A stretch of DNA of 64,000 nucleotides, taken from NCBI GenBank assembly GCA_009909035.1, contig JAAAOB010000019.1, positions 1-64,000 on the forward strand, in the 5' to 3' direction. Of the stretch, positions 1-50,945 are shown piece after piece (within the stretch, counting starts at the first letter, position 1; each line of letters starts with the position of its first letter). The notes under the pieces are model-generated. The model worked only from the letters and a program-made list of their open reading frames with translations. It did no database searches and had not been told where the DNA came from. Position numbers and translations under genes: made by a program. The stretch is from Bacteroidota bacterium. GTDB lineage: Bacteria; Bacteroidota; Rhodothermia; Balneolales; Balneolaceae.

Positions 1-1040
1 TCAGGAAGCTGAATACTTTTGCGGAACGTATCGGAGGTTTCGCAAATCGGTCCGACAACGTCATACGTTTTTTTCGGCCTGTTTGATGTGAGCACATCCA
101 CTTGATGAGCCGCCTGGTAAAGTGCGGGGCGGATCAGCTCGGTCATGCCCGCATCAAGCACGGCAAAGTTTGTGGTGATTCCCTCCTTGACGAAGAGCAC
201 TTTTGATATCAAACTGCCGCACTGCGCCACAATGCTTCGGCCCAGCTCAAAATGAACCTGCTGGCCGTCTCTTACGTTAAGATTGTCATCAAAAAGGTTG
301 AAGAAGGAGTCGAAATCTGGAATAGATTCCTCATCGGGGAGCTCATAATTGATGCCAAGCCCGCCCCCGACATTGATGTGCTTAAGATTAAACCCTTCAT
401 CTTCAAAGCGAGTTTGAATCTGATTCACCTTTTCACAAAGATCCCTGAACGCTTTTAAATCCCTTATCTGCGATCCGATATGGAAGTGTATACCGGTTAG
501 GTTGACCGATTTGAGGCCGGGCAGCATCTCAAACAGCTTGGGCAAATGCTCAGGATTGACGCCAAACTTATTTTCAGAAAGACCCGTGGTAATGTATTTG
601 TGAGTTTTGGCTTCAACATTTGGATTGAGCCGGACCGATACATTGGCAATTTTTCCAGCTTCATTGGCCAGCTCGTTCAGAACGGTGATTTCCTGGATTG
701 ATTCGCAGTTGAAGGAGAAAATATCGTAATCGAGGCCGGTTTGAATTTCCTCATCCGTTTTGCCTACCCCCGCAAAAGCAATCTGTTCCGGTTTGAATCC
801 TGCTTCAATAGCCCGTTCGATCTCTTTGCCGCTTACGCAATCGATACCCATTCCTGCATTGCGTACAAGGTCCAGGATTTTGAAATTAAAATTGGCCTTA
901 ATTGCAAAATGGACATGATATCCCTTTGATACGCCGTGCATCTTTACCTGGTCAAGCGTGCGCTGGAGAAGATTAAGGTCGTAATAGTAAAACGGAGTTT
1001 GGAGAGATCTGAATTTCTCTACCGGAAAGAGGGTTGACAT
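1..1040 (-). CDS. lysA: Diaminopimelate decarboxylase, 3' end outside the window
   Basis: PLP enzyme that decarboxylates meso-diaminopimelate to lysine, the last step of lysine synthesis in the cytoplasm. Reading the minus strand from the ATG at 1040 gives an open frame to the window edge. Visible family motifs are HFAIKAN, with the PLP-binding lysine near residue 48, HFHIGSQI, the glycine-rich GGGLGINYE, and close to the window edge VVGPICETSD, which holds the C-terminal-domain cysteine of the fold type III decarboxylases. The start is the only ATG that gives the usual short N-terminus before the barrel; no Shine-Dalgarno is seen. The last residues lie beyond position 1. Ornithine/arginine decarboxylases share the fold, but the length and motifs fit LysA best. 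Confidence 0.93.
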   Translation of the reverse strand, partial: MSTLFPVEKFRSLQTPFYYYDLNLLQRTLDQVKMHGVSKGYHVHFAIKANFNFKILDLVRNAGMGIDCVSGKEIERAIEAGFKPEQIAFAGVGKTDEEIQTGLDYDIFSFNCESIQEITVLNELANEAGKIANVSVRLNPNVEAKTHKYITTGLSENKFGVNPEHLPKLFEMLPGLKSVNLTGIHFHIGSQIRDLKAFRDLCEKVNQIQTRFEDEGFNLKHINVGGGLGINYELPDEESIPDFDSFFNLFDDNLNVRDGQQVHFELGRSIVAQCGSLISKVLFVKEGITTNFAVLDAGMTELIRPALYQAAHQVDVLTSNRPKKTYDVVGPICETSDTFRKSIQLP

Positions 1041-1148
1041 CGAGAGTGTTTGAATTCGTGGTTAGCCATCAAAACTACGGATTTAGGAGTTCAGATGTGT
1101 TGGTTTTTGATTCTCACCTCCCGCAGAGGAGACAGCCGCCATGCGATG

Positions 1149-1472
1149 GGACCCACCCCTCTGGATCTCCCCTCCCTCCGCCGAAAGACACGGCGCATGG
1201 AGGGGAGAGGCTTTAGATCGGAAATCGAAAACCGTAAATCTCAAGAATCGCTAAATCAAATGTAGAGTCTGATGATTTTGCAATAGCTTTACCCGATACC
1301 CGATACCCGATACCCGATACCCGATACCCGATACCCGATACCCGATACCCGATACCCGAATTAACGACATAACGATGTAGCGGTCCGGAATTTAGACCTC
1401 TCCTCTCGCGGTGGAGACAGCCGCCAAAGCGATCCGTCGGCTCACGGAATGCGACGCGGCAGAGGTGGGTCC
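1149..1472. mobile_element. MITE-like intergenic element, copy A
   Basis: A 324-bp non-coding block whose ends are imperfect inverted repeats: GGACCCACCCCTCTG at 1149-1163 and CAGAGGTGGGTCC at 1460-1472, which match over 13 bases apart from a 2-base gap. Inside are a hairpin with 9-bp arms (1167-1175 with 1199-1207), a 59-base stretch (1192-1250) identical to 3949-4007 in copy B, and an ACCCGAT array. There is no transposase and no clear target-site duplication, so mobility by a transposase acting in trans is inference. It could instead be a REP/BIME-like repeat. Confidence 0.6.
1291..1359. repeat. Heptamer tandem array (ACCCGAT)n, about 9.9 copies
   Basis: Nine perfect ACCCGAT units and a partial tenth, with no mismatches. 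Read on the minus strand, every frame is open and encodes the same heptapeptide (IGYRVSG), because seven is not a multiple of three; open frames across it are therefore by-products of the repeat. The perfect identity suggests slippage-driven copy-number variation. Confidence 0.95.
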
Positions 1473-1513
1473 AACTATGGCTGATCGTCCGTCCACCACC
1501 CATGAAGTAAATT

Positions 1514-1521
1514 TACATTTG
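1514..1521 (+). promoter_or_regulatory. Possible -7 element TACATTTG
   Basis: Matches the Bacteroidota -7 consensus TAnnTTTG and lies 61 bases before the ATG at 1583. I see no convincing TTG at the -33 distance, so this rests on one motif only. Confidence 0.3.
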
Positions 1522-1582
1522 AATATTTACTGCATAAAAGTACATTGTGAAGAGTGAACACCCTAATTTTAATACGTTATGT

Positions 1583-2524
1583 ATGCAGAGAATTACAGGC
1601 ATCTTGATACTCTTCTTACTTCTGCCTTTTACCGTTCAATCGCAAATCGTTACAGAGATGGAATTGGTGAATGATAAATTAGCCCGTGGGGAAAATTTTC
1701 AGTTTACCTACTCATTCTTTAATGGTTCAGATGAAACTCTCCAGTACACAGGGAGTTCATCCTGGCAGGTGAAGCTGGAATTTAGCGACATTGAAGAGTT
1801 TGATGTTTCGGTCACCGCTGATTACTTATCGTATTTTGTGGCACCTGGAGGTTTTCTCACGTTTGAATTCGACCTTTCACCAGAAGAGCTAAAATGGCCA
1901 CTTTTTGACGGCGAACACCTGATCTACGCAACATTCCTGGGCCGCACAGATTCTGTAGCGGTTGAAGCACCGGCCACCTATGGCGGAGAATTGAATGTGA
2001 GATACAACAGTACAGATGCAGCGGCAGTGCAGGCATTCAAAGATAGCCTGGCTGCAGAAGATGAAAGTATGGAGATTCTGGACCAGGGGGATAACTCAGG
2101 CGAGGTTTTTGAACGCTGGTCATTTGAAAACCTGCAGGTTGAACGGCTGAACCAGCAGGTAAAAGCGGATGACCGGTTTATCAGTTCATGGATAGACCGG
2201 TTTATAACACATGAGTCGTCAACGTTTACATCAAATGAAGATGAAAGCGACATTTTACCTGCTTCCACAGAACTCAAAAGGAACTATCCGAACCCATTCA
2301 ATCCGTCGACAAACATTGAATTTTACCTTGATAGTCAGGGCAGAGTTGAACTTTCAGTATATGATCTTGCCGGCAGAAAAGTGGCAGAGCTGGTCAGCCG
2401 AACCCTTTCTGTAGGCACTCATTCACGACAGTTTGATGGCGGAAATCTTGCCAGCGGCGTCTACATCTACCGATTGACCACAGAGAATACCACCCTTTCC
2501 AAGAAGCTGACTCTTGTCAAGTAG
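1583..2524 (+). CDS. Secreted protein with T9SS type A sorting domain
   Basis: The 313-residue product starts with a typical signal peptide (MQRITGILILFLLLPFTVQS) and ends with about 80 residues of a type A sorting domain: NYPNPFNPST, a YDLAGRKV core and the terminal SGVYIYRL...KKLTLVK strand. That domain sends proteins through the type IX secretion system to the surface. Residues about 25-150 are beta-rich (FTYSFFNGSDETLQYTGSS), resembling the BsuPI inhibitor fold; that match is tentative. A GTG at 1547 would add 12 residues before the signal peptide; I prefer the ATG at 1583. It converges on the Nramp gene with an 11-base gap, and both lie between two copies of a repeat element. Its substrate or target cannot be told. 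Confidence 0.85.
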   Translation: MQRITGILILFLLLPFTVQSQIVTEMELVNDKLARGENFQFTYSFFNGSDETLQYTGSSSWQVKLEFSDIEEFDVSVTADYLSYFVAPGGFLTFEFDLSPEELKWPLFDGEHLIYATFLGRTDSVAVEAPATYGGELNVRYNSTDAAAVQAFKDSLAAEDESMEILDQGDNSGEVFERWSFENLQVERLNQQVKADDRFISSWIDRFITHESSTFTSNEDESDILPASTELKRNYPNPFNPSTNIEFYLDSQGRVELSVYDLAGRKVAELVSRTLSVGTHSRQFDGGNLASGVYIYRLTTENTTLSKKLTLVK

Positions 2525-2535
2525 CTGAAAAAATT

Positions 2536-3852
2536 TCATTTATTAAGCGTTGTATTGCGGTTTAATCCTCCTTTTATCAACGGTATGATGACAAACAGGA
2601 ACAGAACGATTGATATAGCGACGATCACGGTTTGATTTGGCAGATCAAAATGTCCAATCCGTGAAGATGCTTTCAATAGATTGGTTAATCCAATCAGAAT
2701 GGTAAGCCAGGTAACGATGCCGGTCAGGACGTTCGTTACTGTCCCGTTTTGATGGTTAGCAGGCAAAACCCGTGGATTGTTCATGAGCAGGAACAGGATC
2801 ACCGCAATCACAGGCAGAATAATCCCGTTGAGCGCCTGCGCCAGGATGATCACCGGAACGGGCTGGAGCTGCATCACGCCAAAGAGCAAGCCGATGCCGA
2901 GCACGCCCATCCAGACGGATCGGAATTTCAGTCCGGTTTCGTTCCAGGAGGATGGGTTTTTGGTATCTGAAAGGAGGGATTTTGCTGTTACGGATGCGGC
3001 CAGGGCGGCGGTGAGTGTAGAGCTGAGTCCGGCACCAAACAGGCCGATGGCAAGCAGGAGAGATCCATAGCCGCCCAGCTGTGTGGAGAGGGTGGAGGCC
3101 AGTTTTTCGAAGGTAAAATCACCGGTAATGGCGGTCCCGGTGAGCAGAATGGCCACAGAAATGAGTCCGCCAAGCCCAATGGCGATTCCAAGACTTAGCT
3201 TCATTTCTGATGGTGACTGGGCGTGCTTCAGTCCCGATCCCAGGAAAATATTGTAGGGCACTACGGTGGTGCCGATGAGCCCCAGCACGAGGATTTCAGA
3301 TCCATCAGGAATCATAGGAATAAATCCATTGGCGAAGATTTCAGAAAGAGACGGTGAGATCATGACGGCGGTCATCACAAAACAGATTCCCATGATGGCC
3401 ACGATCACTCCCAGCAGCTTTGCAATCTGGCGAACCGTGCCCTTCCAGAGCAGAATGCCGGCCAAGATGCCAATCAACGCTACAATGAGCGGAACTGGAA
3501 TAGAACCGGTCACCAATGTCAGTCCTGCCACGGCGCCCAATATATTCCCGGCCTCAAACGCGGCGCAGCCGCTGAGAATGGCAATGAGCGCGAGCCAGAT
3601 CAGCCAGGTTCCTGCTTTGGAACACCCATACTCCTGCTTCATCGCCTGACCCAGATTGTGTCCACTCACGGCCGTAATGCGGGCGGATGCCTCCTGGAGG
3701 ATGTAGCATGCAATTGTGGAGAAGATCAGCGCCCAGATCAGCGCATACCCAAAACCCGCACCGGCTGAAGCAGCGGTTGTGACCGTGCCCGGCCCGATAA
3801 ATGCCGCGGATATCACCGACCAGAAAAGGATATTGAGGAGTCGTTGTTTCAT
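2536..3852 (-). CDS. Nramp (SLC11)-family transporter, divergent metal site
   Basis: A 438-residue polytopic membrane protein of the Nramp/MntH superfamily, with many hydrophobic helices and the family's start pattern (SVISAAFIGPGTVTTAASAG). Classical Nramps bind Mn2+ or Fe2+ with the helix 1 motif DPGN and the helix 6 motif MPH. Here the equivalents appear to be GPGT (residues 20-23) and VPYN (about 198-201), so the aspartate, asparagine, methionine and histidine positions all differ. The protein is thus a divergent family member whose substrate should not be assumed to be Mn2+. An upstream TTG at 3888 is possible, but the ATG at 3852 gives the normal N-terminus. It is convergent with the T9SS protein and has no obvious metalloregulator beside it. 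Confidence 0.85.
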   Translation of the reverse strand: MKQRLLNILFWSVISAAFIGPGTVTTAASAGAGFGYALIWALIFSTIACYILQEASARITAVSGHNLGQAMKQEYGCSKAGTWLIWLALIAILSGCAAFEAGNILGAVAGLTLVTGSIPVPLIVALIGILAGILLWKGTVRQIAKLLGVIVAIMGICFVMTAVMISPSLSEIFANGFIPMIPDGSEILVLGLIGTTVVPYNIFLGSGLKHAQSPSEMKLSLGIAIGLGGLISVAILLTGTAITGDFTFEKLASTLSTQLGGYGSLLLAIGLFGAGLSSTLTAALAASVTAKSLLSDTKNPSSWNETGLKFRSVWMGVLGIGLLFGVMQLQPVPVIILAQALNGIILPVIAVILFLLMNNPRVLPANHQNGTVTNVLTGIVTWLTILIGLTNLLKASSRIGHFDLPNQTVIVAISIVLFLFVIIPLIKGGLNRNTTLNK

Positions 3853-3896
3853 GGGGAGTAGTGTAGGAGGGAATGAGTGAATTAGCAAATTGGGTT

Positions 3897-4153
3897 GACC
3901 ACCCCTCTGGCTCTTTCCTCCCTATCCGCCGGGTGGCGGAAAAGACATGGCGCATGGAGGGGAGAGGCTTTAGATCGGAAATCGAAAACCGTAAATCTCA
4001 AGAATCGATATATCAATTGTGAAGGCTGGTAATTTTGAGATAGCTTTACCCGATACCCGATACCCGATACCCGATACCCGATACCCGATACCCGATACCC
4101 GATACCCGATACCCGATACCCGATACCCGATTAACGACGCTGCAGAGGTGGGT
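3897..4153. mobile_element. MITE-like intergenic element, copy B
   Basis: Second copy, in the same orientation as copy A. It starts at GACCACCCCTCTGG, a degenerate left end, carries the same 59-base block (3949-4007), 12 heptamers, and ends at CAGAGGTGGGT (4143-4153). In place of copy A's hairpin it has a local CCGCC...GGCGG stem near 3926-3940. The rest of the 3853-4451 gap shows only another hairpin (4225-4241) and AT-rich sequence before the oxoprolinase gene. Confidence 0.6.
4048..4131. repeat. Heptamer tandem array (ACCCGAT)n, 12 copies
   Basis: Twelve uninterrupted perfect units, against just under ten in the copy 2.7 kb upstream. Both arrays follow the same TAGCTTT junction and are followed by TTAACGAC, so they are alleles of one repeat that differ in copy number. 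Confidence 0.95.
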
Positions 4154-4224
4154 TTCGGAGGCTGGTAGTGATGTCCTGCCACGGGACCCATCCCTGAAGG
4201 TCCGCTGGACGCGACTGCTTCTGT

Positions 4225-4241
4225 CCCCTCCGCCGGAGGGG
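4225..4241. repeat. Perfect hairpin CCCCTCC-GCC-GGAGGGG
   Basis: Seven-base arms around a three-base centre, in a stretch (4171-4250) that also repeats the GGGACCCA motif seen at the left end of copy A. There is no T-run, so it is probably part of repeat debris and not a terminator. Confidence 0.55.
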
Positions 4242-4451
4242 AGGAGTTTAAGGCTTGAAAATCGACTTAAAGCTCCACAATATCTAATCAACCAATAAAC
4301 GAATAAACAAATTACCAACACGCACGCTTGCAGGTCCTCTTTTGACGAATAACGAATTTCCCCATCAAGGAAAAAACCAAATACCGAAATTAATTTGAGT
4401 TAACACGCAGTTCTTTATCTTTTAGCTGAGTAAGAATTCTATCTGAAATAG

Positions 4452-7400
4452 ATGCAGGAACAAAACCAATCATCGGCGGCATCCCCATGGAAGCTCTACA
4501 TCGACACGGGCGGGACGTTTACGGACTGTATCGCGTACGATCCGGATGGAAATATTCATCGGCGAAAGGTTCTTAGCAGCAGCGCGGTTCGGGGAACGGC
4601 TGAAGGCGGAACCTCATCAACTAACGTTAAGGTCGTTTTGAGAGAGGATCTGCCTGAGGGATTTTTTAAGGAGTGCGACTTTTCACTGCTTGACCGGCCA
4701 GGGGAGACGTTCAGGATTCTGAATTTTAATGCATCTGCATCGCAAATTCTTTTGGATCGTGAGATTGATCTGTCGGGAAAGGAATCACACGCTTTTGAGA
4801 TTGTGAGCGGTGAAGAGGCTCCGATCCTGGCCGCCCGGATGGTGACCCGCACGGCTCCCGGTGATCTGTTTCCACCGCTTGAACTTCGATTGTCAACAAC
4901 CAAGGGTACGAATGCACTTCTTGAGAGAAAAGGTGCTAAAACACTCTTTATCATCACGGAAGGGTTTGGAGACCTGATAAAAATCAAAAACCAGCAGCGG
5001 CCTGATATTTTCTCACTAAACATTCAGAAATCTGATCCGTTTTATTATAAGATAATAGAGGCTCGAGAAAGGGTGGATGCCAATGGTAACATTATCAAAC
5101 CACTTGACAAAAAGGATCTTCAAGACCGCATCAAGCCGATAAAAGATGAGTTTGATGCCGTGGCGATCTGCCTGATGAACAGTTACAAAAACAGCCGCCA
5201 TGAACAAGAGATTGAAAAGATACTGCTGGATATGGGATTCCAATATGTCTCGTGCTCTTCTGACCTGAGCCCTGAGATCAAGATTGTGCCGCGAGCCGTC
5301 ACGGCTGATGTCAACGCGTATCTGACCCCCATTATGGACCGGTATCTATCGAGAATAGCTAAGGTGATCAGCGGCAGTTCATTCAGGGTGATGAGCAGCG
5401 GCGGAAACCTGGTGGAGGCCGATCACTATCTGCCAAAAGATGGGTTGCTCAGCGGTCCGGCCGGGGGAGTCATTGGTGCGGCGGCGATCGGGAAGAGGGT
5501 TGCAAAAAACCTGACAGGTTTAGAAAAGATCATCTCCTTCGACATGGGGGGAACGAGCAGCGATGTGTCCCGCTATGATGGTGCAATGGATTACGTGTAT
5601 GAACATGCGGTGGCTGATGCAACGCTTGCGGCTCCGGCTGTGGATATCGAGACGGTTGCTGCAGGAGGAGGATCCATTTGCGGGTTTGACGGCCGCAGCC
5701 TCACGGTGGGACCGGAGAGTGCCGGCGCTGATCCGGGTCCGGCGTGTTATGGTCGTGGCGGTCCATTGACCATCACGGATGTGAATCTGCTATCGGGCCG
5801 CTTGAACAGGGCGAACTTTCATATCTCCATTGATCGCAAAGCTGCCGATATGCGGTTCAAGGAATTGCAGAAAAAGGTGAATGAAAATCGGGATCAAGAG
5901 CTAAGCAGGAACCAGATTTTGTCGGGCTTTTTGGATATCGCCAATGAACGAATGGCCCAGGCAATCGAGACCATTTCTACACAGAAGGGGTTTGATCCGA
6001 TGGAGTATTCTCTTGTCGCATTTGGAGGAGCCGGCGCTCAGCATGCCACCGCTATTGCTGAAAAACTGAACATATCAACAGTACTTGTGCCGGCTGATGC
6101 AGGGCTGCTCAGTGCTTACGGCCTGCAGCAGGCAACGCTTGAGCAGATAGAAACTCTGCAGATGCTGAAGCCGCTCAGTGATGTAGAACGATCTTTAAAG
6201 GAAGAATTTGATAAACTTGAGAGAATAGCTCAAAACGGTTTGAATGGTCAGGGTGTGGACGATGCGCAGATCACAGCGGGACAAAAGCAGCTCTTTTTAC
6301 GTTTCCAGGGACAGGATAGCTCTGTAGCAATTGACTGGTCGGAGGGGGTGGATATTTCAGAGAGATTTGAAGACCTGTACCGTCAATCATACGGTCACTG
6401 GATTGAGGACCGGGAGATTGAAGTTGAAGTGCTTCGGGTGAGAGTTTCCGAAAAGAAGCCCGATTCGCAAAAATATGGCGATGAAAAGAAACAGGAAAAA
6501 CAAATTAACTATCAGCAAGACAGTAACGAAAGCACGACGTTTATCACGTCAGATGGAGAACTGGAAGCAGCAATCTACAGGCGGAAAGATTTAAAACCGG
6601 GCGCTTCATTGACCGGCCCGGCACTTGTGCTTGATGCGCACAGCACCACGGTTCTCGAGCCCGGCTGGACAGGAGATCTTTTGGATGATGGCACTTGGCT
6701 GTTCAAGCATACAACGCAAGGCTCTGAAGCATCAACGAAAGTCGACCGCTCAGAGGAAGTAAACCTGCAGCTCTATACCAACCGGTTTACCTCCGTTGCC
6801 GAAGAGATGGGAGAGGTATTGAGGAAAACGTCGATGTCGGTGAACGTAAAAGAGCGGCTCGATTTTTCATGCGCTCTGCTTAACCGTGACGGATATCTCG
6901 TGGTAAATGCACCTCATATACCAGTTCATCTTGGGGCGATGGGGACGTGTGTGAGGACAATAATTGATTGGAGTAAAAATGAGAAAACCCTCCAAGAGAT
7001 CGAAACCCTTGGAGGGTTGAGTAATGAATTCGTAGAAGGCGACATCATCGTCACCAACCACCCCGCATTCGGTGGATCACATCTACCGGATGTAACCGTC
7101 ATCACGCCTGTATTTGTAGATGGAGAGCGGATCGGCTTTGTAGCGAGCCGGGCGCATCATGCAGAGATTGGAGGAAAGCGTCCGGGGTCCATGCCGCCGG
7201 ATGCAACACGACTTTCAGAAGAAGGCGTTGTGATTCCACCCACCTTGCTGGCCCGCAACGGTGATTTTCGTTGGGACCACATCAAACAGCTGCTGACGGA
7301 TGCCGAATGGCCCACCCGTTCGATAGACGAAAATATGGCGGATCTGCAATCTGCCGTTTCTGCCAATCATCGCGGGGCTGAAAAGTTGAAATCAATGGCC

Positions 7401-50767: not shown

Positions 50768-50945
50768 TAAATACAGTCCAAAAAGGGCGTTAGATAAGTT
50801 AATTCATCAACAATTATGTCATGCCACGCCCCGGCGTGGCATCTCCTGCCTTTGTTAAGGACAGAAGGTTTCACTCCGCTGGCGCCACGTGTTCAAAAAA
50901 TGAGCGCATCGAGTGCGAGATGACGCCCTTTTTGGACTGCATTTA
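50768..50945. mobile_element. 178-bp MITE-like element with 23-bp terminal inverted repeats
   Basis: Left end 50768-50790 and right end 50923-50945 are inverted repeats that match at 22 of 23 positions (TAAAT-A-CAGTCCAAAAAGG... against its reverse complement). The ends carry TA on both sides, as expected for a TA target duplication of the IS630/Tc1-mariner kind. Inside is a perfect 22-base palindrome (50821-50842) and a GCGCATCGAGTGCGAGATGACGCC-type stretch in parts shared with 39262-39286. No coding capacity. Mobilisation in trans is inference. Confidence 0.75.
50821..50842. repeat. Perfect palindrome ATGCCACGCC-CC-GGCGTGGCAT
   Basis: Ten-base arms with a two-base centre inside the 178-bp element. 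A strong potential cruciform or RNA hairpin in the thrC 3' untranslated region. No T-run follows, so termination here would need another signal. Confidence 0.8.

Follow-up and report, generated by a model that had tools for sequence, protein, structure and literature searches.

At positions 1149–1472 of the 64,000-nucleotide stretch analyzed here (the window), a pair of short inverted ends encloses a hairpin and a heptamer array, raising the question of whether this is a mobile element and, if so, what moves it. An earlier note, made from the sequence alone, had described the stretch as MITE-like, and the features that it pointed to are present: the ends GGACCCACC-CC-TCTG (1149–1163) and CAGAGGTGGGTCC (1460–1472), an internal hairpin, a perfect TACCCGA array and a segment repeated 2757 bp away (176 nt at 94% identity, with a perfect core of ~59 nt). 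We found that 1149–1472 consists of two inverted copies of a structured unit with the heptamer microsatellite between them (Table 1).

The 324-bp full layout has only two copies in the genome, both inside the window. BLAST of 1100–1520 against the own genome returned one full second copy, at 3899–4116 in the same window, and a dozen partial matches; because each partial match covers one module, the real repeat is the end module and not the 324-bp whole. The second copy (copy B) matches the first (copy A) in left unit, spacer and heptamers, and its right-unit body is gone, with CGAC at both deletion end-points. No Rfam covariance model matched 900–4600 at E≤1.

Table 1. Coordinates of the hairpin units and associated features in the window
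Feature	Position	Strand	Evidence or remark
Truncated right-type unit: hairpin-1 remnant CACCTCCCGCAGAGGAGACAGCCGCC, end box lost	1111–1148	+	86% direct repeat of 1398–1426
Left unit, GGGG type: end box GGACCCACCCCTCTG, hairpin 1 (1166–1208), without hairpin 2	1149–1215	-	Covariance-model match 1149–1206, 20.1 bits
Hairpin 1 of left unit	1166–1208	.	18-nt arms 1166–1183 / 1191–1208, 89% complementary
Spacer, degenerate AATCGNA-like tract, common to copies A and B	1216–1289	.	Sequence comparison
Heptamer microsatellite (TACCCGA)10, 10.0 perfect units	1290–1359	.	Also occurs without hairpin units
Right unit, GAGG type: hairpin 1 1399–1417, GACAG, hairpin 2 1420–1460, end box CAGAGGTGGGTCC 1460–1472	1399–1472	+	Covariance-model match, 42.9 bits, E 1.4e-9
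Copy B left unit	3897–3966	-	Direct repeat, spacing 2746–2757
Copy B heptamer microsatellite, 12.1 units	4047–4131	.	
Copy B right-unit stub, end box only, body lost	4141–4155	+	CGAC at deletion end-points
Third unit, best preserved, both hairpins	4184–4250	-	Covariance-model match 4184–4241, 51.9 bits, E 5.9e-12

The heptamer array is an independent microsatellite

The heptamers had been counted as part of the element, a claim that does not hold. TACCCGA arrays occur in only three places in the own genome, one of which (G000 C118) carries no units, the array of the congener G160 (L309) is likewise free of units, and none was found in 147 other genomes of the phylum. On the minus strand the array reads as a G3N4 heptamer, GGGTATC. 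The array is a genus-level G3N4 microsatellite that is independent of the element and lies in the spacer by chance; it would have originated there independently and then have been copied with the spacer to 3.9 kb. The G-quadruplex heptamer repeats GGGAATC of Xanthomonas (PMC4692102) are also G3N4, a likeness that is limited to the array and does not extend to the element.

The repeated unit is a conserved double hairpin with a coupled end box

The inverted ends by themselves prove nothing, because the window holds ~40 comparably spaced inverted pairs that are 12 nt or longer and have no more than one mismatch, and the 11-mer end motif, allowing one mismatch, occurs 49 times genome-wide against 55 for the reversed control. 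We therefore dropped both as evidence and scored complete units with a covariance model trained without the units of the window. With this model the host genome yields 39 units and the congener 49, and even the incomplete left unit (1149–1206, minus strand) reached E 0.001 at 20.1 bits. The complete unit is thus highly significant, unlike the ends alone.

In order, the unit comprises hairpin 1, GACAG, hairpin 2 (of free sequence) and the end box CAGRGGTGGGTYC. Hairpin 1 takes the form CTCCCCTCC-loop-GGAGGGG or CTCCTCC-loop-GGAGGAG, and the left unit of the window folds at -35 kcal/mol. Base pairing in hairpin 2 is real, as covariation attests: its outer eight positions are 72.7% Watson-Crick, compared with 30.5% after swapping 3' arms between units (maximum 39.8% among 1000 swaps), and five of the ten consensus pairs show two-sided changes in the alignment. 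Furthermore, the variable purine R of hairpin 1 equals that of the end box in 61 of 63 distinct units (37 GG, 24 AA and 0 AG), as one would expect if hairpin and end box were read together.

Many copies are intergenic and stand in inverted dimers, which when complete measure ~100–150 bp in both the own genome and the congener. Around DUF559 genes (see below) the dimers all point the same way, the left end being of GGGG type and the right end of GAGG type, a rule that the window pair 1149/1472 also follows; REPIN-like, the palindromic dimers stand alone as well, in tens of copies. When 84,980 species genomes were scanned for the pattern, the unit turned up in Rhodohalobacter, a Balneolaceae MAG, Calditrichota, KSB1 and a small number of further MAGs. 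The expectation that copies elsewhere would share these ends is borne out in other genomes, and with it the view that the window belongs to a dispersed, non-autonomous family, of which the own genome also holds copies with shared ends. One further cluster in the own genome (L080, G000 C140:11800–13200) is a ~146-bp tandem array of three left-type units adjoining a transporter-like gene.

Two conventional explanations fare poorly against this anatomy. Ordinary transcription terminators, or chance low-complexity GC hairpins next to a microsatellite, would account for intergenic hairpins that adjoin gene ends and for inverted ends at chance level; we find this hardly credible given a conserved two-hairpin anatomy with an end box (E down to 6e-12 in the window), the lack of a T-tract and the in-frame copies within genes. 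A classical MITE, that is, an internally deleted IS with terminal inverted repeats mobilized by a DDE transposase, would share the inverted ends, small size and multiple copies. It is highly improbable, however, since no target duplication is seen at the ends, none of the loci examined contained a DDE transposase that shares them, and the ends are subterminal hairpins, REP-like rather than TIRs. Of the MITE-like reading, the dispersed non-autonomous family is supported and a MITE in the usual sense is not. At the flanks of complete dimers in the own genome and congener we saw no direct repeat by eye, and no exact empty site for unit dimers was resolved.

No bracketing of Y1 transposase genes by units in the loci scanned

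Our first idea of a partner was a RAYT, prompted by a RAYT gene on the own contig C143 that has one diverged unit ~310 bp away; on this reading a Y1 (HUH) transposase would move the units as RAYTs move REPs. The inverted hairpin dimers are REPIN-like, RAYT-family genes are present in nine of the ten unit genomes, with three in the own genome, and the GGGGWSAS shared by TIRYT TIRs is fitted by GGGGACAG (PMC3733652). We dropped the idea when Y1_Tnp loci proved not to be bracketed: among 33 such loci scanned in unit genomes, at most one had a weak unit-like match nearby and none was bracketed, and among the units listed none lay within 1 kb of 50 Y1_Tnp genes. In addition, the REP foot GT[AG]G (or CGTC) is absent 5' of hairpin 1 and of hairpin 2 in the consensus of 26 units, with GGTGGG lying 3' of hairpin 2, and the own-genome RAYTs are flanked by different hairpins. 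These points make a RAYT quite improbable as the driver, and the units are tied to no IS nor, as far as tested, to a RAYT. The flanks at the own-genome RAYT loci L033 and L034 carry the hairpin repeats GTCCCGTAGGGAC and CGTGCCGTAGGTACG, so that this genome also has a REP-like system distinct from the present one.

Hairpin units bracket DUF559 genes

A cluster of complete dimers on the own contig C100 brackets a DUF559 gene, and its units are 79% identical to the right unit of the window. DUF559 (PF04480) was found in nine of ten unit-bearing genomes searched, and units bracket it in the own genome (C100), KSB1 and Calditrichota. Further DUF559 genes have their own variant hairpins on both sides, among them a second own-genome gene on C159 (L175), whose flanks share the design of the window's left unit. 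Among the units in the matches listed, at least 18 have one of 29 DUF559 genes within 1 kb, where 0.21 would be expected. The earlier note had looked to a transposase gene with matching ends; no transposase among the loci examined has them, and the gene that does is DUF559, which encodes a predicted Vsr/EDxHD-type endonuclease.

To quantify the association, we compared flanks in 40 Bacteroidota regions and gene content in 148 genomes of the phylum: repeats flank both sides of 26 of 37 DUF559 genes versus 30 of 375 neighbouring genes (p 2e-17; 8 of 119 for size-matched neighbours), and DUF559 is present in 18 of 19 genomes with units versus 60 of 129 without (p 4e-5), p values that shared ancestry inflates, yet bracketing is seen repeatedly with units of unrelated sequence. 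About 30% of DUF559 genes fail the flank test, and most of those listed have a hairpin on at least one side. At L166–L192 and L222–L261, DUF559 is bracketed by other hairpin types, CCCCCTTTGAAGGGGG...GGGGGATGT and CTCCCCTCGAGGGGAG...GAGGGGTGTT. Such other types suggest many parallel lineages of one system. The open-access literature searched offered nothing linking DUF559 to hairpin repeats, and the association, which is broader than the window, is apparently undescribed.

DUF559 is a predicted Vsr/EDxHD-type endonuclease

The C100 protein matches PF04480 at 4e-34, and DUF559 proteins are ~130 aa long, without an extra DNA-binding domain. A profile of 19 DUF559 sequences matched PDB 3hrl (endonuclease-like protein) at 8e-33 and PDB 3r3p ("mobile intron protein"), which we take to be I-Bth0305I, at 6e-6. 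The residues E, D, E-x-D, H and a later D are invariant in all 19, pointing to a Vsr/EDxHD-type endonuclease fold with the catalytic acidic residues and histidine kept. EDxHD homing endonucleases have been described (PMC3943268), and a DUF559 gene has been assigned to this family (PMC9403480). A single-sequence AlphaFold model of a DUF559 protein (pLDDT 42) was set aside.

DUF559 elements occur inside conserved genes and at the window locus of a sister species

Besides insertions between genes, DUF559 and its hairpins are read through in frame inside LeuRS, MetH and HsdR-like genes, essential genes among them. LeuRS is uninterrupted in ~31 of 40 sampled genera of one family, that of G063, and the same LeuRS loop holds DUF559 in G063, G217, G205 and G184, with hairpins flanking it in three, so that DUF559 is present or absent at a fixed site among relatives. 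In the LeuRS of G184 (L303) the DUF559 within the loop is degenerate and the hairpins are gone, perhaps marking a decayed or domesticated insert. The loop, which precedes VFTTRPDT (L278–L306), also takes unrelated in-frame repeats: besides DUF559 elements it holds GTCATTGCGAGCGAAGCGAAGCAATC-type hairpins, TGAGCTTGTCGAAGC-type repeats and AATTCAGAATTCAG runs. Because it accepts many unrelated intergenic repeats, it is a natural trap for mobile repeats.

At the locus of the window, the congener G160, a sister species, has lysA, then dimer - DUF559 - dimer - dimer, then a hydantoinase gene. In the window, unit cluster A is followed by a T9SS-sorted ORF and an Nramp gene, after which come unit cluster B and the hydantoinase gene. 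This comparison makes the window a DUF559-less relative of the congener's element, although the two additional genes between the clusters mean that it is no simple deletion of it. When the intergenic DNA of the two is aligned at the nucleotide level, the right unit alone aligns well. The T9SS-sorted ORF and Nramp gene (1473–3896) sit where the congener has only the DUF559 element; they are possibly cargo, or the outcome of a rearrangement between repeats.

A REP-like family with a candidate homing-type driver

We consider it probable that what the window holds is a gene-less, and hence non-autonomous, member in decay of a REP-like element family, which a homing-type endonuclease is likely to drive. 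Against this stands the window's left unit, which lacks hairpin 2 and scores 20 bits. The complete element would read [left unit, right unit] - DUF559 gene - [left unit, right unit]. Its DUF559 protein would recognize the hairpin units and cut DNA at or near the end box; repair of the break from an element-bearing copy would then spread the element in gene-bearing and gene-less forms, and unit dimers could be mobilized in trans.

A competing reading takes DUF559 as a passenger or beneficiary, with some other activity spreading the units and the gene riding between them or preferring to insert there. Each genome has tens of units at a distance from any DUF559, the LeuRS loop also takes repeat families without it, and the nuclease alone leaves the joining step unexplained, as a hydrolytic nuclease by itself cannot join DNA. 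We nevertheless regard a passenger role as unlikely, since in several phyla DUF559 is bracketed by units of independent sequence, and genomes that have units tend to have DUF559 too.

The DUF559-hairpin system looks like selfish DNA that resembles REP repeats, with a homing-endonuclease-like partner in place of a transposase. REP/REPIN/BIME sequences with their RAYT (TnpA_REP) genes (PMC2817692, PMC3116915, PMC3733652, PMC6006769) likewise consist of short palindromes that form inverted dimers, number tens of intergenic copies and bracket a cognate single-domain enzyme gene; here, however, the partner is DUF559 (Vsr/EDxHD) and not a Y1/HUH transposase, and the unit has two hairpins and an end box coupled to hairpin 1. 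TIRYT/TIRtron repeats (PMC3733652) also bracket a small gene and form dimers or groups elsewhere, but their gene is a Y1 transposase. EDxHD homing endonucleases (I-Bth0305I; PMC3943268) share a homologous nuclease domain (PDB 3r3p) and insertion inside conserved genes; unlike them, the DUF559 element has no self-splicing intron or intein, and the hairpin repeats at its borders occur as free copies too.

GC-rich hairpin repeats of the form CCCCTCC...GGAGGGG are common in Bacteroidota and related genomes, and their origin has so far had no explanation; a tie to DUF559 would account both for these repeats and for a domain still labelled "unknown function". The double-hairpin elements and GC clusters of fungal mitochondria, which are organellar, are similar in having double hairpins, in being dispersed and thought mobile, and in lying near endonuclease ORFs. 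As a tentative extension, on which we lean slightly toward doubt, stand-alone DUF559 may define an unnamed class of bacterial mobile element, reading double-hairpin units in which end box and hairpin-1 arm correspond in a guide-like manner, and spreading its own gene and a large population of gene-less dimers among Bacteroidota, Calditrichota and KSB1, with essential genes invaded in frame. If so, there would be a second REP-like system, run by a homing-type nuclease rather than a transposase, and one could test directly where in-frame palindromic insertions in essential genes come from.

Elsewhere in the window, at 50774–50938, a long exact inverted repeat, CAGTCCAAAAAGGGCG / CGCCCTTTTTGGACTG, has its arms ~140 bp apart, and a similar motif, CTGTCCAAAAAG, adjoins units in L006 and L075.
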